Shown: positions 28,917 to 34,383, counted from the stretch's first letter. The stretch: 64,000 bases of DNA from Planctomycetota bacterium (GCA_020425605.1 JAGQRH010000020.1:1-64000), one strand, 5' to 3'. Made by a program: numbers and translations. Notes: a model not told the origin generated them from the letters alone.

Positions 28917-28946
28917 TTGACACAAGTTGCCGCCGACCGCGACAAT
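28917..28946 (+). promoter_or_regulatory. candidate promoter of the 29012 gene cluster
   Basis: A perfect TTGACA (28917-28922), an 18-nt spacer and GACAAT (28941-28946). Transcription would start near 28953, about 59 nt before ATG 29012. Confidence 0.45.
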
Positions 28947-29011: not shown

Positions 29012-30172
29012 ATGGCCACACAAGAAGTAGTTCTTCGCCCCGGCGATTCAATATCTGTAAGACTCGAGGTGCCCGGTCAGCCCCTGCGCCTTGACATGAG
29101 TCTGACACCAGACGGCGTGTCCGTGTCAGCGCCCGTGCCGATGGGCGCCCCGACCATCTTTGGCGGCGTTCCACCTCTTCACGATGATCCCTCACCGGTT
29201 GATCTGACGGAAGAGTTCGCCCTGGAAGATGAAAGCGCGCATGAGCCCATGCCGGCGCAGAAGGTCGAAAGCCTCGCAGCGGTCGAGCCATTCGGCGGTG
29301 AGCCCATGGCCGTGGATATCCCGTTCGACGACGTTGATGGCGATGATGGCGGTCTCCAGATGGAAGAGACGGTCGGAACGCAGGATGTAACGGAATCAGA
29401 CGACCTGGACCTCGACCTCAGCGATCTCGAGGGCGACCTTGAAGAAGAGTCCGTGTCGGCCGGCGTCGACATTCCCGAAGACGATGCTGGCGGTCTCGGG
29501 CTTGAAGCGGATTCCATCGACATCCCCGCGGACGACGAGCCGGGTTTCAACGCAGACGCCATGACCATGCTGCCGCCGACACGCAAGGCGGCAGAAGAAT
29601 CGCTTTCCATCGAGGATGACGACGCAGGGCTCTCGCTGGACAACCTGTCACTGGATGACGAGGAGGTTGAATTGGACGCAGACGGCAATCCAAAGGCCAA
29701 GTTCAAGCCCGGACCGGAAGATACTCTCCCGGTCTGGACCGGAAAGGCCAGCAGCTACAAGGACCCCAACCTCGAGAAAAAGAAGAAGGAAACGTCGAAG
29801 CTGAACAAGGCGGCCGCGCCCGCTGCAAAGTCGTCCGCAAAGCCGTTAGCCGCTGCGAAGCTGCCCGGGGCTGCGAAGAAGCCGATCACCAAACAGCTCA
29901 AGAAGCCGGTAACCGGCGCCGTCGGACCGTCGTCTAGTGGCTCTGGTCGCAAAGCGGCCGAAGGGGCAGGCAATTTCACAGTATTCCTTTCGCCTCCGAA
30001 GGGGGCCGACAAGAAGCAGGCCGCGGCCGAGATCATCGCGGAGATTCAGGGCATCGACATGAACTCGGCGATTGCATTGGCCGGCAAGATGATCGTGCCT
30101 GTAGTGAAGGGCGTCTCGGAAGACGAGGCACAAGGCGTGCGCGACCGGTTCAAGGACGCAGGCCTTTCTTGA
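29012..30172 (+). CDS. acidic low-complexity protein with L7/L12-like C-terminal domain
   Basis: A 386-aa protein in three parts. Residues 1-50 form a short folded-looking beta segment (VVLRPGDSISVRLEVPGQPLRLDMSL). Residues 55-240 are very rich in Asp and Glu with repeats such as DIPxDD. Residues 250-315 are Lys/Ala/Pro-rich. The last 65 residues (NFTVFLSPPKGADKKQAAAEI ... VVKGVSEDEAQGVRDRFKDAGL) look like the C-terminal domain of ribosomal protein L7/L12. This domain call is by eye. There is no signal peptide or TM. It opens a cluster with an FHA protein. Confidence 0.72.
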   Translation: MATQEVVLRPGDSISVRLEVPGQPLRLDMSLTPDGVSVSAPVPMGAPTIFGGVPPLHDDPSPVDLTEEFALEDESAHEPMPAQKVESLAAVEPFGGEPMAVDIPFDDVDGDDGGLQMEETVGTQDVTESDDLDLDLSDLEGDLEEESVSAGVDIPEDDAGGLGLEADSIDIPADDEPGFNADAMTMLPPTRKAAEESLSIEDDDAGLSLDNLSLDDEEVELDADGNPKAKFKPGPEDTLPVWTGKASSYKDPNLEKKKKETSKLNKAAAPAAKSSAKPLAAAKLPGAAKKPITKQLKKPVTGAVGPSSSGSGRKAAEGAGNFTVFLSPPKGADKKQAAAEIIAEIQGIDMNSAIALAGKMIVPVVKGVSEDEAQGVRDRFKDAGLS

Positions 30173-30217
30173 CGCATCACCCAGAAGCGCTAAACCGTAA
30201 CAGGGAAACACACCTCA

Positions 30218-30487
30218 ATGAAGATCATCAAGAACGACGACGGCTCGGCCACTCTGCAGTCTGACCACGGGAACTTTGAGTTCACCGATGACGAATTCGA
30301 CGACCTTATCCATGCCATCCCCATCAGCACCACACACCTCTACCGCCTGCTGATTGACACATTGATCGAGGGTGACGAGCGCAAGCAACAGATGCGCGGG
30401 CTCATCGAGGCGACCGGCAACTCTGATGCGCAGCTGACGCTGCTGCAGAATGAAGCGCTCCGGTTCGTCGACGGGGAAGACGACTAG
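30218..30487 (+). CDS. hypothetical 89-aa protein
   Basis: A small acidic protein: an N-terminal beta hairpin (MKIIKNDDGSATLQSDHGNFEFT) and a helical remainder. No recognised family. It lies 45 bp after the L7/L12-like gene and 3 bp before the FHA gene, so it is almost surely part of the same operon. CAGGG (30201-30205) lies upstream of the ATG. Confidence 0.72.
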   Translation: MKIIKNDDGSATLQSDHGNFEFTDDEFDDLIHAIPISTTHLYRLLIDTLIEGDERKQQMRGLIEATGNSDAQLTLLQNEALRFVDGEDD

Positions 30488-30490
30488 GCC

Positions 30491-31318
30491 ATGTCCGCAA
30501 CGTTGCGCTGGAATCGACTTGTCATCGCCGCTGAGAGTGAAGAAGAATTCATCTCGGCGGTGTTCGACTATTTCCCGCAACTGCTGCAGCTTCCGTACGA
30601 CCGTGTTGAGATGGACATCACCGGCACGGCGGAGATCTCGGAAGACGCGTTCCGCAGTATCGCCATCAAGCTGATCGGCGGAGAGGCTGCGGAGAAAAAA
30701 GTCCTGATTCGGATTCCTCCATCCGTCGACCGCTATTTCCGGCACGCCAACCTGTACCGCATGGTCGAGGTCGATGTGGTCCAGCCTCTGGCAGGTAACG
30801 GCAAGATGGACGCCGCCAAGGTCAAGGCGAACATCAAGGGCTCAAAGTACGAGGCGGTCAAGGCCGCCAAGCCGATTCAATCGGATATGACCGAGATGGC
30901 GCCACCGGCAGCATTGGCGCCGGAGGCACCCGATCTTGCACCTGAGCCGGCCAAGAAGACCAAGCCCACCCGCGCCTCTCGCCCGGTAGAAAAGGCTTCG
31001 AAGGCTGAAGTCGGCTACATGGTGGATGTCGAGAGCGGTACACGCCATGAGATCCGCAAGACCATGATGATCGGCCGCGAGCCGCCCAGCGACCTCGTGT
31101 TCCAGATCCCGACGATCAGCAAGCGCCACTTCCAGATTCGCAAGGAAGGGGATGCGTTCATGATTGAAGACATGCGCTCTACCAACGGGACCTATCTCAA
31201 TGGGCTGCCGGTCCATGAGCCTGTGCCCCTGCGCGACGGGGACGAGATCGTTGTCGCCATCACGCTGAAGCACCCGAAGGGCGCCAGAATCTTCCAGTTC
31301 ACAACGAAGCCGGAATAG
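30491..31318 (+). CDS. FHA domain protein with possible N-terminal STAS-like domain
   Basis: A 275-aa protein. The C-terminal 95 residues are an FHA phosphothreonine-binding domain: MMIGREPPSDLVF, TISKRHFQIRKEG and IEDMRSTNGTYLNG keep the conserved Gly-Arg, Ser-x-x-His and Asn residues. Residues 1-95 have the beta-alpha order of STAS or STAS-like domains (VEMDITGTAEISEDAF, KVLIRIPPSVDRYFRHANL), tentative. A Pro/Ala/Lys-rich linker joins the two. It implies signalling by a Ser/Thr kinase, but no kinase is encoded in this window. Confidence 0.85.
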   Translation: MSATLRWNRLVIAAESEEEFISAVFDYFPQLLQLPYDRVEMDITGTAEISEDAFRSIAIKLIGGEAAEKKVLIRIPPSVDRYFRHANLYRMVEVDVVQPLAGNGKMDAAKVKANIKGSKYEAVKAAKPIQSDMTEMAPPAALAPEAPDLAPEPAKKTKPTRASRPVEKASKAEVGYMVDVESGTRHEIRKTMMIGREPPSDLVFQIPTISKRHFQIRKEGDAFMIEDMRSTNGTYLNGLPVHEPVPLRDGDEIVVAITLKHPKGARIFQFTTKPE

Positions 31319-31382
31319 GCTCCAATAGCCGCAGCTGAACCGGGAGCGGAATTCCCCGTTCCTATGGTTAAGAGGTGCGCCA

Positions 31383-33266
31383 TTGGCCAAGATTTCGCTC
31401 AAGCCAGTTGACCACGGCCCGGCCCCCGCCGCGTCGGCCATGTTCGTGAAGCTGGCGGGCCTGGTGGTGATGACGACCACGCTGGTCGGCGTCATCTTCA
31501 TGCTGCTGACCTATTCGTGGCAGGATGAGCGCAAGTCCTGGGACTGGGAGCCCGAGAGCATCCGCACCAACTTTGATCCTCTCCTGACGACCGAACAGAT
31601 CCGTAAACGCTTCAAAGAGCTGCGTGACGAGTGGCAGACGAAGAACCCGATCAACCAGCTGCCGGGTAATTTCGAAACGGACCCCGACCCGACCAGCTCC
31701 AACAAGCCAAAATCCAACGACATCGGCCTGCCGTTTGATGGCGGCGAAGAGCTGCCACCACCGGATCCCTTTCCATCGAGCGGCGGCGTAGACCAACGTG
31801 ACCTCGCGCGACAGGATGCCGAGCGCGAGCTTGCGGTGGCCGAGAAGCTGAATCTTCCGCCCGTCTTCAACCTCACGGACGAGACACAGAACCTGCTCGA
31901 CTTCGTCCAGTTCACGGACGCGTCGCGCGAAAAATCAATGAACGAGTTCGATGCCTACCGCGGGCGGCAGGCCCCGACGAATGAAGTTCTGGCATTGCAG
32001 ATATTGCGTAAGCTTCCCGACGCTGGAAGCGCGGACTATGCGGACTACCTGGCCAAAATCGACAAGGACGGCTGGTTCTACGGCAAGTCACAGGATGTCT
32101 GCGAAGTGTATCGAGGCCGCGGGTTCTCGGCCGAGGGCCGACTGTTTGACCTGTACGAGATCAAGCCGGACAAGCCGATCGTGCTGCAGGATGGCACGAA
32201 GGTCGAGAGTTACTTTGAGGGCGTGGTCGCGTTGCTCGGCGCTGGCATGGTACGCAAGGAGCACAAGATTGAGCAGCGCACCGTGCTCTTCCAGTCCTTG
32301 AGCATCCCGGAGGGGCTCAGGGATTACGTGAACGACAAAGGCTCCGTCTCGCACGAAGACAAGCTGGTCACGAACAAGGTCATGGTAAAGATGACCGGGG
32401 CATTCCTGCGCCGCTGGATCTACAGCCGTGAGGTGAAGCCGTACAGCACCGAGGCCAAGAAGGTACTGACGCAGGATCATCTGCCGTTGCTCCTGACTGC
32501 CGACCTGGCCCGGAGTGACAGGACCCCGTACGAGCTGACCGACGAGTTGCTGCAACAGGTTCGCGACGCAATGCGGGAAGATCCGGTGTATCTTGAGTCC
32601 GAGGCGGCCTACTACGCGATGCTTGCCAAGGCCAATGACCCGGACGACGAAGTCGACGTCGTCGACGAGATCGGCTATTTCGACCTCGCCGGCGAGGAAA
32701 CCGGCCCGCGCTATCGCGGCCAGGGCATTCATGTCGTCGGCATGATCGGCGATGACTATGCGCCGGTCATCCTGCCCCCGAACATCAGCGGCCTGCGCCG
32801 CGTGTTCCGCGCGCTTGTGCTGCACGACACCAGCGACCTGGAGTCGCCCAAGCGCTATCTTTGCGACATGATTGAGCCCCCCACCGGGCTTGAGCCCCGG
32901 GCATTGATCGACATCGACGCGCGCTACTATCGAAACGTGTTCGAGAGCAATAGCACCAGCTCAAGTGTTCGGCCGCTGTTGATTGTGCGCAAGATGAAGG
33001 GCATCGCTGAAGACAGCGATGAGGGTGCGTGGCTCTATGCAGTTGGCGGTATAGGCGGCGTCGTATTGCTGCTGGCCGTATTGACGTGGTTTATCGTCAG
33101 CGAGCGCCGGGAACGCGCACGCTTCGAGGCTAGCACGCTTGAGCTGTCGCGTGGCCGAATCAAGAAACAGGGCGGGCTGAAACTCAAGCCGCTGCCGGGC
33201 GGAAAGGGCAGTCCGCCCGAAGGCTCCGAGGCGGCAGCAGATCCTTCAGGCGATGGCAAGGAATAG
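31383..33266 (+). CDS. two-anchor membrane protein of unknown function
   Basis: A 627-aa protein. An N-terminal TM (about residues 20-44, LAGLVVMTTTLVGVIFMLLTYSW) and a C-terminal TM (about 560-580, GGIGGVVLLLAVLTWFIV) flank a large domain of roughly 510 residues expected outside the cytoplasm. A basic, Pro/Gly-rich cytoplasmic tail follows. TTG 31383 is chosen as start, preceded by AAGAGGTG. No known fold is evident by eye. It starts 64 bp after the FHA gene; its short cytoplasmic ends could be where FHA binds, which is inference. Confidence 0.75.
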   Translation: MAKISLKPVDHGPAPAASAMFVKLAGLVVMTTTLVGVIFMLLTYSWQDERKSWDWEPESIRTNFDPLLTTEQIRKRFKELRDEWQTKNPINQLPGNFETDPDPTSSNKPKSNDIGLPFDGGEELPPPDPFPSSGGVDQRDLARQDAERELAVAEKLNLPPVFNLTDETQNLLDFVQFTDASREKSMNEFDAYRGRQAPTNEVLALQILRKLPDAGSADYADYLAKIDKDGWFYGKSQDVCEVYRGRGFSAEGRLFDLYEIKPDKPIVLQDGTKVESYFEGVVALLGAGMVRKEHKIEQRTVLFQSLSIPEGLRDYVNDKGSVSHEDKLVTNKVMVKMTGAFLRRWIYSREVKPYSTEAKKVLTQDHLPLLLTADLARSDRTPYELTDELLQQVRDAMREDPVYLESEAAYYAMLAKANDPDDEVDVVDEIGYFDLAGEETGPRYRGQGIHVVGMIGDDYAPVILPPNISGLRRVFRALVLHDTSDLESPKRYLCDMIEPPTGLEPRALIDIDARYYRNVFESNSTSSSVRPLLIVRKMKGIAEDSDEGAWLYAVGGIGGVVLLLAVLTWFIVSERRERARFEASTLELSRGRIKKQGGLKLKPLPGGKGSPPEGSEAAADPSGDGKE

Positions 33267-33297: not shown

Positions 33298-34383
33298 ATG
33301 GATGTTACCCGCGTGCCGGTGTCTCTTGGAGAGCGCAGCTACGACGTCGTGATCGGCGAGCGTCTGATTGGCGAATTGCGCGAATTCGCCGAATCCGAGA
33401 AGCCGACTTCTTCCTTCATCGTCACTGACAGCAATGTCGGGCCACTTCACGCGGATGCCGTTCAGAACGCAGTCGTCGCCAATCGGGTGCTGACAATCCA
33501 GGCCGGCGAAAACAGCAAAAGCCTCGCCCAGCTTGGCCGTCTCTACGACGAAGCGTTCGCCACCCGCCAACTGGATCGGCACTCGCTGGTGTTTGCGCTC
33601 GGTGGCGGGGTCGTCGGCGATCTTGGCGGCTACCTTGCGGCGACACTCCTGCGCGGAATCCGATACGTGCAGGTGCCGACGAGCCTTCTGGCGATGGTGG
33701 ACTCGAGCGTGGGCGGCAAGACAGCCATCAACCACGCGACAGGCAAGAACCTGATCGGCGTTTTCCACCAGCCGGCCGCCGTATTCTGCGACCTTCACTT
33801 TCTCAAGACTCTGCCGGATCGCGAGTACACCAGCGCACTGGCCGAGATCGTGAAGACCGCGGCACTCAGCGGCGAAGAATTGATGGCCGCGCTGGAGGAA
33901 TCGGCAGGGAAGATCGTGGTGCGCGACCTGCCAACGCTGCACTCCGTGATCGAGGCCTGCGTACGATTCAAAGCCGAAGTAGTCGCCGAGGATGAGGTCG
34001 AAGTTTCCGGCCGTCGGGCGACACTCAATCTCGGGCACTCGCTTGCGCATGTTATTGAGACCGCCTTCCCGGAGAGATTCCTGCACGGCGAAGCTGTATC
34101 GATCGGGACCGCGGCCGCACTGCGACTGTCGGTAGAACGTGCCCAGCTATCCGGCGATGTAGCGTCTCGCGTGACCGCGCTGCTTGAACGCTTTGGCCTG
34201 CCGGTTGAAGCGCCCGCCGAACTTGGCGCCGCACAGGTACTACAACTCATGGAGACTGACAAGAAACGCGCGGGCCACGTCGTGCGGTTTGTCGTGCTGT
34301 CCGAGCTGGGCGAGGCCGGCGCGCTCCCCTGCAAGCTGGATGACGACCTGGCAGCACTACTCCTGGGCCGGGCAAATGCGTGA
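33298..34383 (+). CDS. aroB: 3-dehydroquinate synthase
   Basis: A 361-aa NAD-dependent cyclase, step 2 of the shikimate pathway. FALGGGVVGDLGGYLAATLLRG is the NAD loop, then VPTSLLAMVDSSVGGKTAINHATGKNLIG, LAEIVKTAAL with a metal-site Glu, and NLGHSLAHVIE and LHGEAVSIG with the metal-binding His residues. Normal length. It overlaps dprA by 8 bases. Confidence 0.96.
   Translation: MDVTRVPVSLGERSYDVVIGERLIGELREFAESEKPTSSFIVTDSNVGPLHADAVQNAVVANRVLTIQAGENSKSLAQLGRLYDEAFATRQLDRHSLVFALGGGVVGDLGGYLAATLLRGIRYVQVPTSLLAMVDSSVGGKTAINHATGKNLIGVFHQPAAVFCDLHFLKTLPDREYTSALAEIVKTAALSGEELMAALEESAGKIVVRDLPTLHSVIEACVRFKAEVVAEDEVEVSGRRATLNLGHSLAHVIETAFPERFLHGEAVSIGTAAALRLSVERAQLSGDVASRVTALLERFGLPVEAPAELGAAQVLQLMETDKKRAGHVVRFVVLSELGEAGALPCKLDDDLAALLLGRANA

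Follow-up and report, generated by a model that had tools for sequence, protein, structure and literature searches.

The adjoining genes g1, g2 and g3 were judged, from sequence comparison, to form one unit, and the fourth gene, g4, was judged to be part of a different group with aroB and dprA. With moderate confidence, the products of g1, g2 and g3 may be proposed to form a phosphothreonine-dependent complex, serving as a cytosolic signalling module of Planctomycetota. The window (the whole stretch of DNA analysed, 64,000 nucleotides) corresponds to contig C77 in a draft planctomycete genome of 4.24 Mb. The named relatives are Planctomycetota MAGs; the sampled set comprised 294 planctomycete genomes, 278 of them outside the family of the window's genome. 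The features of the locus were as follows.

29012-30172, plus strand: g1, open reading frame; acidic, mostly low-complexity putative scaffold protein, 386 aa as annotated
29555-29581, plus strand: g1 threonine motif DAMTMLPPT (TMxPP), candidate kinase target by inference; pattern TM.P in 15/15 family g1 proteins
29726-29758, plus strand: g1 motif LPVWTGKASSY (LPxWTG(R/K)A(R/S)xY) in the acidic linker; found by regular expression in 14/15 family g1 proteins
29972-30190, plus strand: g1 bL12-type C-terminal domain, from the NCBIfam L12 match and the family profile against PDB; its last strand (RITQKR) lies beyond an in-frame TGA
30170-30172, plus strand: in-frame TGA of g1; g1 proteins of the same family have Cys here, or Ser in two genomes
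30218-30487, plus strand: g2, open reading frame; 89-aa acidic protein
30491-31318, plus strand: g3, open reading frame; 275 aa, STAS domain, disordered linker and FHA domain
30491-30790, plus strand: g3 STAS-type domain, residues 1-100; AF2 order b-b-a-b-a-b-a-b and profile homology
31067-31252, plus strand: g3 FHA domain, residues 193-254; Pfam FHA and Foldseek
31383-33266, plus strand: g4, open reading frame; 627 aa, TTG start, two-anchor membrane protein
31452-31508, plus strand: g4 transmembrane segment 1, residues 24-42; hydrophobicity, AF2 helix 17-46
32121-32498, plus strand: g4 predicted OB-fold region 1, residues 247-372; AF2 pLDDT mostly >90, Foldseek SSB/OB folds
32724-32987, plus strand: g4 predicted OB-fold region 2, residues 448-535; AF2 and Foldseek, the part conserved across the phylum
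33042-33098, plus strand: g4 transmembrane segment 2, residues 554-572; hydrophobicity, followed by a basic cytoplasmic tail
33298-34383, plus strand: aroB (3-dehydroquinate synthase), Pfam E = 3.4e-45; conserved partner 3' of g4, adjoining it in other families

The reading frames of a first-pass annotation were reproduced, as were its intergenic gaps of 45 bp (g1-g2), 3 bp (g2-g3) and 64 bp (g3-g4); the same-strand run continued past g4, with aroB starting 31 bp downstream. Comparison with three sister genomes showed purifying selection on g1 to g4 (dN/dS 0.08–0.22, similar to aroB), and all four frames are therefore real genes. The one candidate promoter was found again as a sigma-70-like site 5' of g1 (28917-28946, 10/12 match), but this is weak evidence and no better than chance allows, because shuffled sequence yielded such sites at 1.2 +/- 1.1 per shuffle. 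When g1 was read past its TGA, in the frame used by all relatives, it continued through RITQKR to a TAA at 30191-30193, giving 393 residues with the TGA position and a g1-g2 gap of 24 bp, as in sister genomes. The TGA is likelier to be a point mutation or assembly error than a selenocysteine codon; the latter was rejected since no stable hairpin followed (z = -0.49) and the Cys was not conserved across the phylum, although the genome has selA.

The FHA domain previously ascribed to g3 was confirmed by Pfam (PF00498, E = 1.5e-19, 70.6 bits against a cut-off of 20.7), and all residues that bind phosphothreonine were present and invariant (R196, S210, H213, N232, G233). AF2 predicted this domain confidently, and its Foldseek matches were the FHA structures of EmbR, GarA and OdhI. 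Scores against NCBIfam equivalogs all fell under their cut-offs (TagH 44/120.25, GltG 19.6/650, FhaB 56/125 and OdhI 44.8/200 bits); the labels TagH, YscD and GltG were rejected, being below cut-off or reflecting the FHA fold alone. The description of the N-terminal part as STAS-like was also borne out, by profile homology and predicted topology. Aligned with STAS-PilZ repeats it gave an hhalign probability of 99 (E = 2.8e-18), and four of six of those relatives matched STAS_2, below the STAS_2 cut-off. There was no direct Pfam match for the g3 domain, its homology to STAS_2 being transitive via these relatives, and its profile found nothing significant among PDB sequences. By profile comparison, then, it is a divergent STAS domain.

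Domains of the g3 STAS type also occurred in other planctomycetes (L208, L209, L210, L211, L074, L073), some proteins having as many as four; in several they were joined to PilZ (L208, L210, L074 and L073 tested), on two occasions close to genes for Ser/Thr kinases. The window's own genome carries a second STAS-FHA gene (G000:C76:70428-71108; L056 9429-10172), about 40% identical to g3 and without g1 or g2, and this solitary paralogue was present in most same-family genomes.

The STAS homology raises the possibility of partner switching, in which g3 would antagonise an anti-sigma factor and its FHA domain would tie it to kinase signals, the output being transcriptional. An ECF sigma gene does lie two genes downstream of g3 in G008, and because in other families this kind of STAS domain is found together with PilZ in one protein it appears to be paired with signal readers. 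Against this, the position of the SpoIIAA-type phosphoserine is Asp in g3 (ISEDAF) and other residues in paralogues, so the Ser is not conserved; the position of SpoIIAA Ser58 was placed on ISEDAF from an alignment made by eye. Neither an anti-sigma kinase of RsbW type nor a PP2C was found among the genes read beside g3, which were part of its neighbours, and the sigma gene of G008 is a single case. Partner switching was consequently considered unlikely, although it was the strongest of the alternatives.

g2 had no Pfam or NCBIfam match, and its profile found nothing significant among PDB sequences. Outside the family, relatives were identified in 15 of the sampled genomes, either alone (85–147 aa) or as 2–3 repeats within larger planctomycete proteins, and g2 is a new small protein family. 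In G104 an FHA gene precedes a g2-like gene on the same strand. The large proteins at L188, L191, L193, L195 and L197 (518–846 aa) each contain the g2 domain two or three times and had no Pfam match.

All four genes were present in 15/15 other same-family genomes, for the most part as an unbroken run in conserved order, which contig ends or frameshifts interrupt in a few. In G002 (L060 8284-12656), apparent frameshifts split g1 and g4 each into pieces, possibly through sequencing errors. However, lolD, the his genes, aroB, dprA and the metF-like, plsY-like and gpsA-like genes were syntenic within the family too, and since the whole region from the his genes to gpsA keeps its order, gene order inside the family is weak functional evidence. 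It might then be supposed that g1, g2 and g3 are three unrelated conserved genes held together by regional synteny alone, the more so as genes of each type were found apart in other families. Three observations make this quite improbable. The first concerned G008, a member of the same family but of another genus, in which g1-g2-g3 occurred as a block on C277, away from lolD and g4 and with other flanking genes. The second was made in G020, of another family, where the g1-like and g2-like genes are divergent neighbours. The third was the co-occurrence of the g1 WTG motif with the other components. Outside the family, LPxWTG(R/K)A(R/S)xY was present in the g1-like proteins of G020, G051, G055, G024 and G017, and that of G018 has a looser form, WTGSARAY; the motif was repeated in the g1-like proteins of G020, G051 and G017, and an FHA protein of G020 carries LPAWTGRARDY. 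Outside the family, g2 or the g3 STAS domain was present in every one of the six genomes with the motif (6/6, against 24/278 overall; Fisher p = 2e-7, with kinship ignored).

The first-pass annotation had placed all four genes in a single module, and this was rejected on the linkage of g4 to aroB and the split in G008. A g4-like gene directly adjoined aroB, often with dprA, and without g1-g3, in eight genomes outside the family (G016, G020, G053, G192, G261, G034, G035, G189). In G008, g4-aroB-dprA-metF were found together on C93, after an Omp85 gene; both blocks are internal to their contigs, and the split rests on this one draft MAG. Gap lengths followed the same division: they were mostly short for g1-g2 (typically 10–51 bp) and g2-g3 (typically -4 to 14 bp), 29–47 bp for g4-aroB, and widest for g3-g4 at 63–157 bp, the values for L067 being distorted by partial alignment. 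The g4-aroB linkage, the G008 split and the gap lengths therefore indicate two groups, g1-g2-g3 and g4-aroB-dprA. The neighbourhood search suggested earlier as a check found the four genes mostly together inside the family, and outside it a g4-like gene without the others. The locus illustrates how regional synteny can make two adjoining gene groups pass for one module.

The two anchors of g4 and the large domain between them were as first described, with 511 residues separating the hydrophobic segments. Structure prediction of the outer domain, which had been recommended, returned the two OB-fold regions (mean pLDDT 81.7 for the whole model); Foldseek matches were generic SSB-type OB folds, a likeness by shape only that implies no function. 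The second region was found in 49/294 sampled planctomycete genomes. A sequence search of PDB with g4 gave nothing convincing, and an IcmF-type secretion protein was rejected, the Pfam IcmF-related score being 14 bits against a cut-off of 27. It was supposed earlier that the four genes make one transmembrane phospho-signalling system, in which g4 would be the sensor on the outside and would contact the FHA protein through its cytoplasmic tails. The conserved order in nearly all same-family genomes and the basic, conserved cytoplasmic tail of this two-anchor protein would suit such an arrangement, but it is hard to reconcile with the eight genomes in which a g4-like gene adjoins aroB without g1-g3, with the separation in G008, with g3-g4 being the widest gap, or with G020, where the g1-like and g2-like genes are not on the contig of the g4-like gene; we regard it as improbable. 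The phospho-dependent part of the proposal survives, through the intact FHA domain and the kinase fusions and neighbours of relatives, whereas the crossing of the membrane via g4 is not supported. In our reading g4 is an envelope protein in its own right, with its two predicted OB folds outside the cytoplasm; that its envelope role is linked to aroB is a guess.

g1 had been called an L7/L12-like acidic protein, and this held. Residues 55-235 contain 57 D/E against 6 K/R, and NCBIfam L12 matched g1 alone over the C-domain only (E = 6.8e-5, 23.3 bits, below the cut-off of 84.4), while the family profile retrieved bL12 from PDB at E = 7e-5. By these profiles the resemblance is real, if weak for the single protein. 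g1 is not itself a bL12, given the score under the equivalog cut-off and the absence of the bL12 N-terminal domain. PPR matches of the profile in PDB were dismissed as scattered fragments of designed repeats. A homologue was present in 15/15 sampled same-family genomes, and relatives in 101/294 planctomycete genomes, the weakest and shortest of these matches probably being ribosomal bL12 itself. The usual parts of relatives are a similar-looking N-terminal domain, a stretch resembling a zinc ribbon (CPxCGExF), a long acidic linker and the C-domain; the window's g1 retains only the last two. In G025 (L255 818-6180) a g1-like gene was observed upstream of pilB/pilT-like ATPase genes. A translation-linked module, in which the L12-type domain would recruit translation GTPases, draws on the bL12 match but is very improbable: K70, R73 and K84 (E. 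coli numbering), which we take to be the basic positions of the bL12 factor-binding helices, correspond to E, A and I in the aligned g1, which also lacks an N-terminal domain for ribosome binding, and relatives carry the L12-type domain fused to kinases.

In the window the locus had no adjoining gene for a kinase, a phosphatase or a sigma/anti-sigma factor, and the earlier remark that no kinase is adjacent holds there. The genome nevertheless gave 33 Pkinase matches (about 30 Ser/Thr kinase loci) and 16 FHA matches, so an adjacent kinase is not required. In relatives, the L12-type domain was fused to a Ser/Thr kinase domain at L250, L251 (G062), L253 (G188) and L260 (G082). In G017 (same class; L081), some 1 kb downstream of a g3 homologue, there is a kinase (E = 7.7e-49) with Ribosomal_L12 at its C-terminus (E = 2.8e-7, above cut-off). 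The g1 of G051 that bears WTGKAREY (L299) has a kinase of 1220 aa (E = 1.2e-55) as its divergent neighbour, and G055 has overlapping genes for a kinase-TPR and a STAS-PilZ protein. These fused and adjoining kinases came mostly from large genomes. After removal of two UbiB/ABC1-like matches, a kinase or FHA gene was nearby at 7/21 g1 loci, compared with 2/20 g4 control loci; this excess is suggestive but not significant alone.

The preferred reading, of g1-g2-g3 as a phosphothreonine-dependent complex, draws directly on observed domain content, the intact FHA site, conservation, the joint relocation of the three genes, and the fusions and neighbours in relatives; from these we infer the phosphorylation, every binding step and the STAS output. 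A Ser/Thr kinase of Hanks type, whose gene lies elsewhere in this genome but is adjoining or fused in relatives, would phosphorylate g1 on a threonine within its acidic, disordered stretch, the candidate sites being the TMxPP and WTG(R/K)A(R/S)xY motifs, although the latter may be a docking site instead of a phosphosite. The phosphothreonine would be bound by the FHA domain of g3, whose STAS domain would pass the complex to an output protein or sequester it; g2 would be a small obligate partner, and the L12-type C-domain of g1 a docking domain common to kinases. More tentatively, the three genes could be one compact node of a planctomycete-specific network around Hanks kinases, comprising L12-derived docking domains, the WTG(R/K)A(R/S)xY motif, the g2 domain and STAS-FHA or STAS-PilZ readers. 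Many planctomycete Ser/Thr kinases have largely uncharacterised substrates and readers, and the locus offers a candidate set of both, with a motif; the L12-type domain has apparently been recruited from the ribosome into signalling.

Most Planctomycetota clades have 20–50 Ser/Thr kinases per proteome (PMC11032199), and the kinases with accessory domains described there belong to a phylum rich in such enzymes, as found here; searching its text for L12, ribosomal domains and STAS gave no match. In a limited literature search, no description was found of an L12-type scaffold, motif, g2 family and STAS-FHA reader as a unit, in agreement with the earlier statement that the combination matches no known system. 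The C-terminal domain of bL12 is homologous to that of g1, but the g1 type forms the C-terminal part of acidic proteins or of kinases. SpoIIAA/RsbV antagonists and Pfam STAS_2 resemble g3 in predicted fold order and, via relatives, in profile homology; unlike SpoIIAA and RsbV, g3 lacks the conserved regulatory Ser and is fused to FHA, and neither an RsbW-type kinase nor a PP2C was found among the neighbours read. The closest parallel is with the actinobacterial STPK-FHA systems (OdhI/GarA, EmbR, FhaA/FhaB), in which, as proposed for g3, an FHA domain reads phosphothreonine from Hanks-type kinases, and which include its nearest structures (EmbR, GarA, OdhI). These systems have no counterpart of g1 and g2, and where GarA and OdhI have an N-terminal phosphopeptide, g3 has a STAS domain. 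On the best reading, the module is an undescribed variant of bacterial kinase-FHA signalling, which is itself known.
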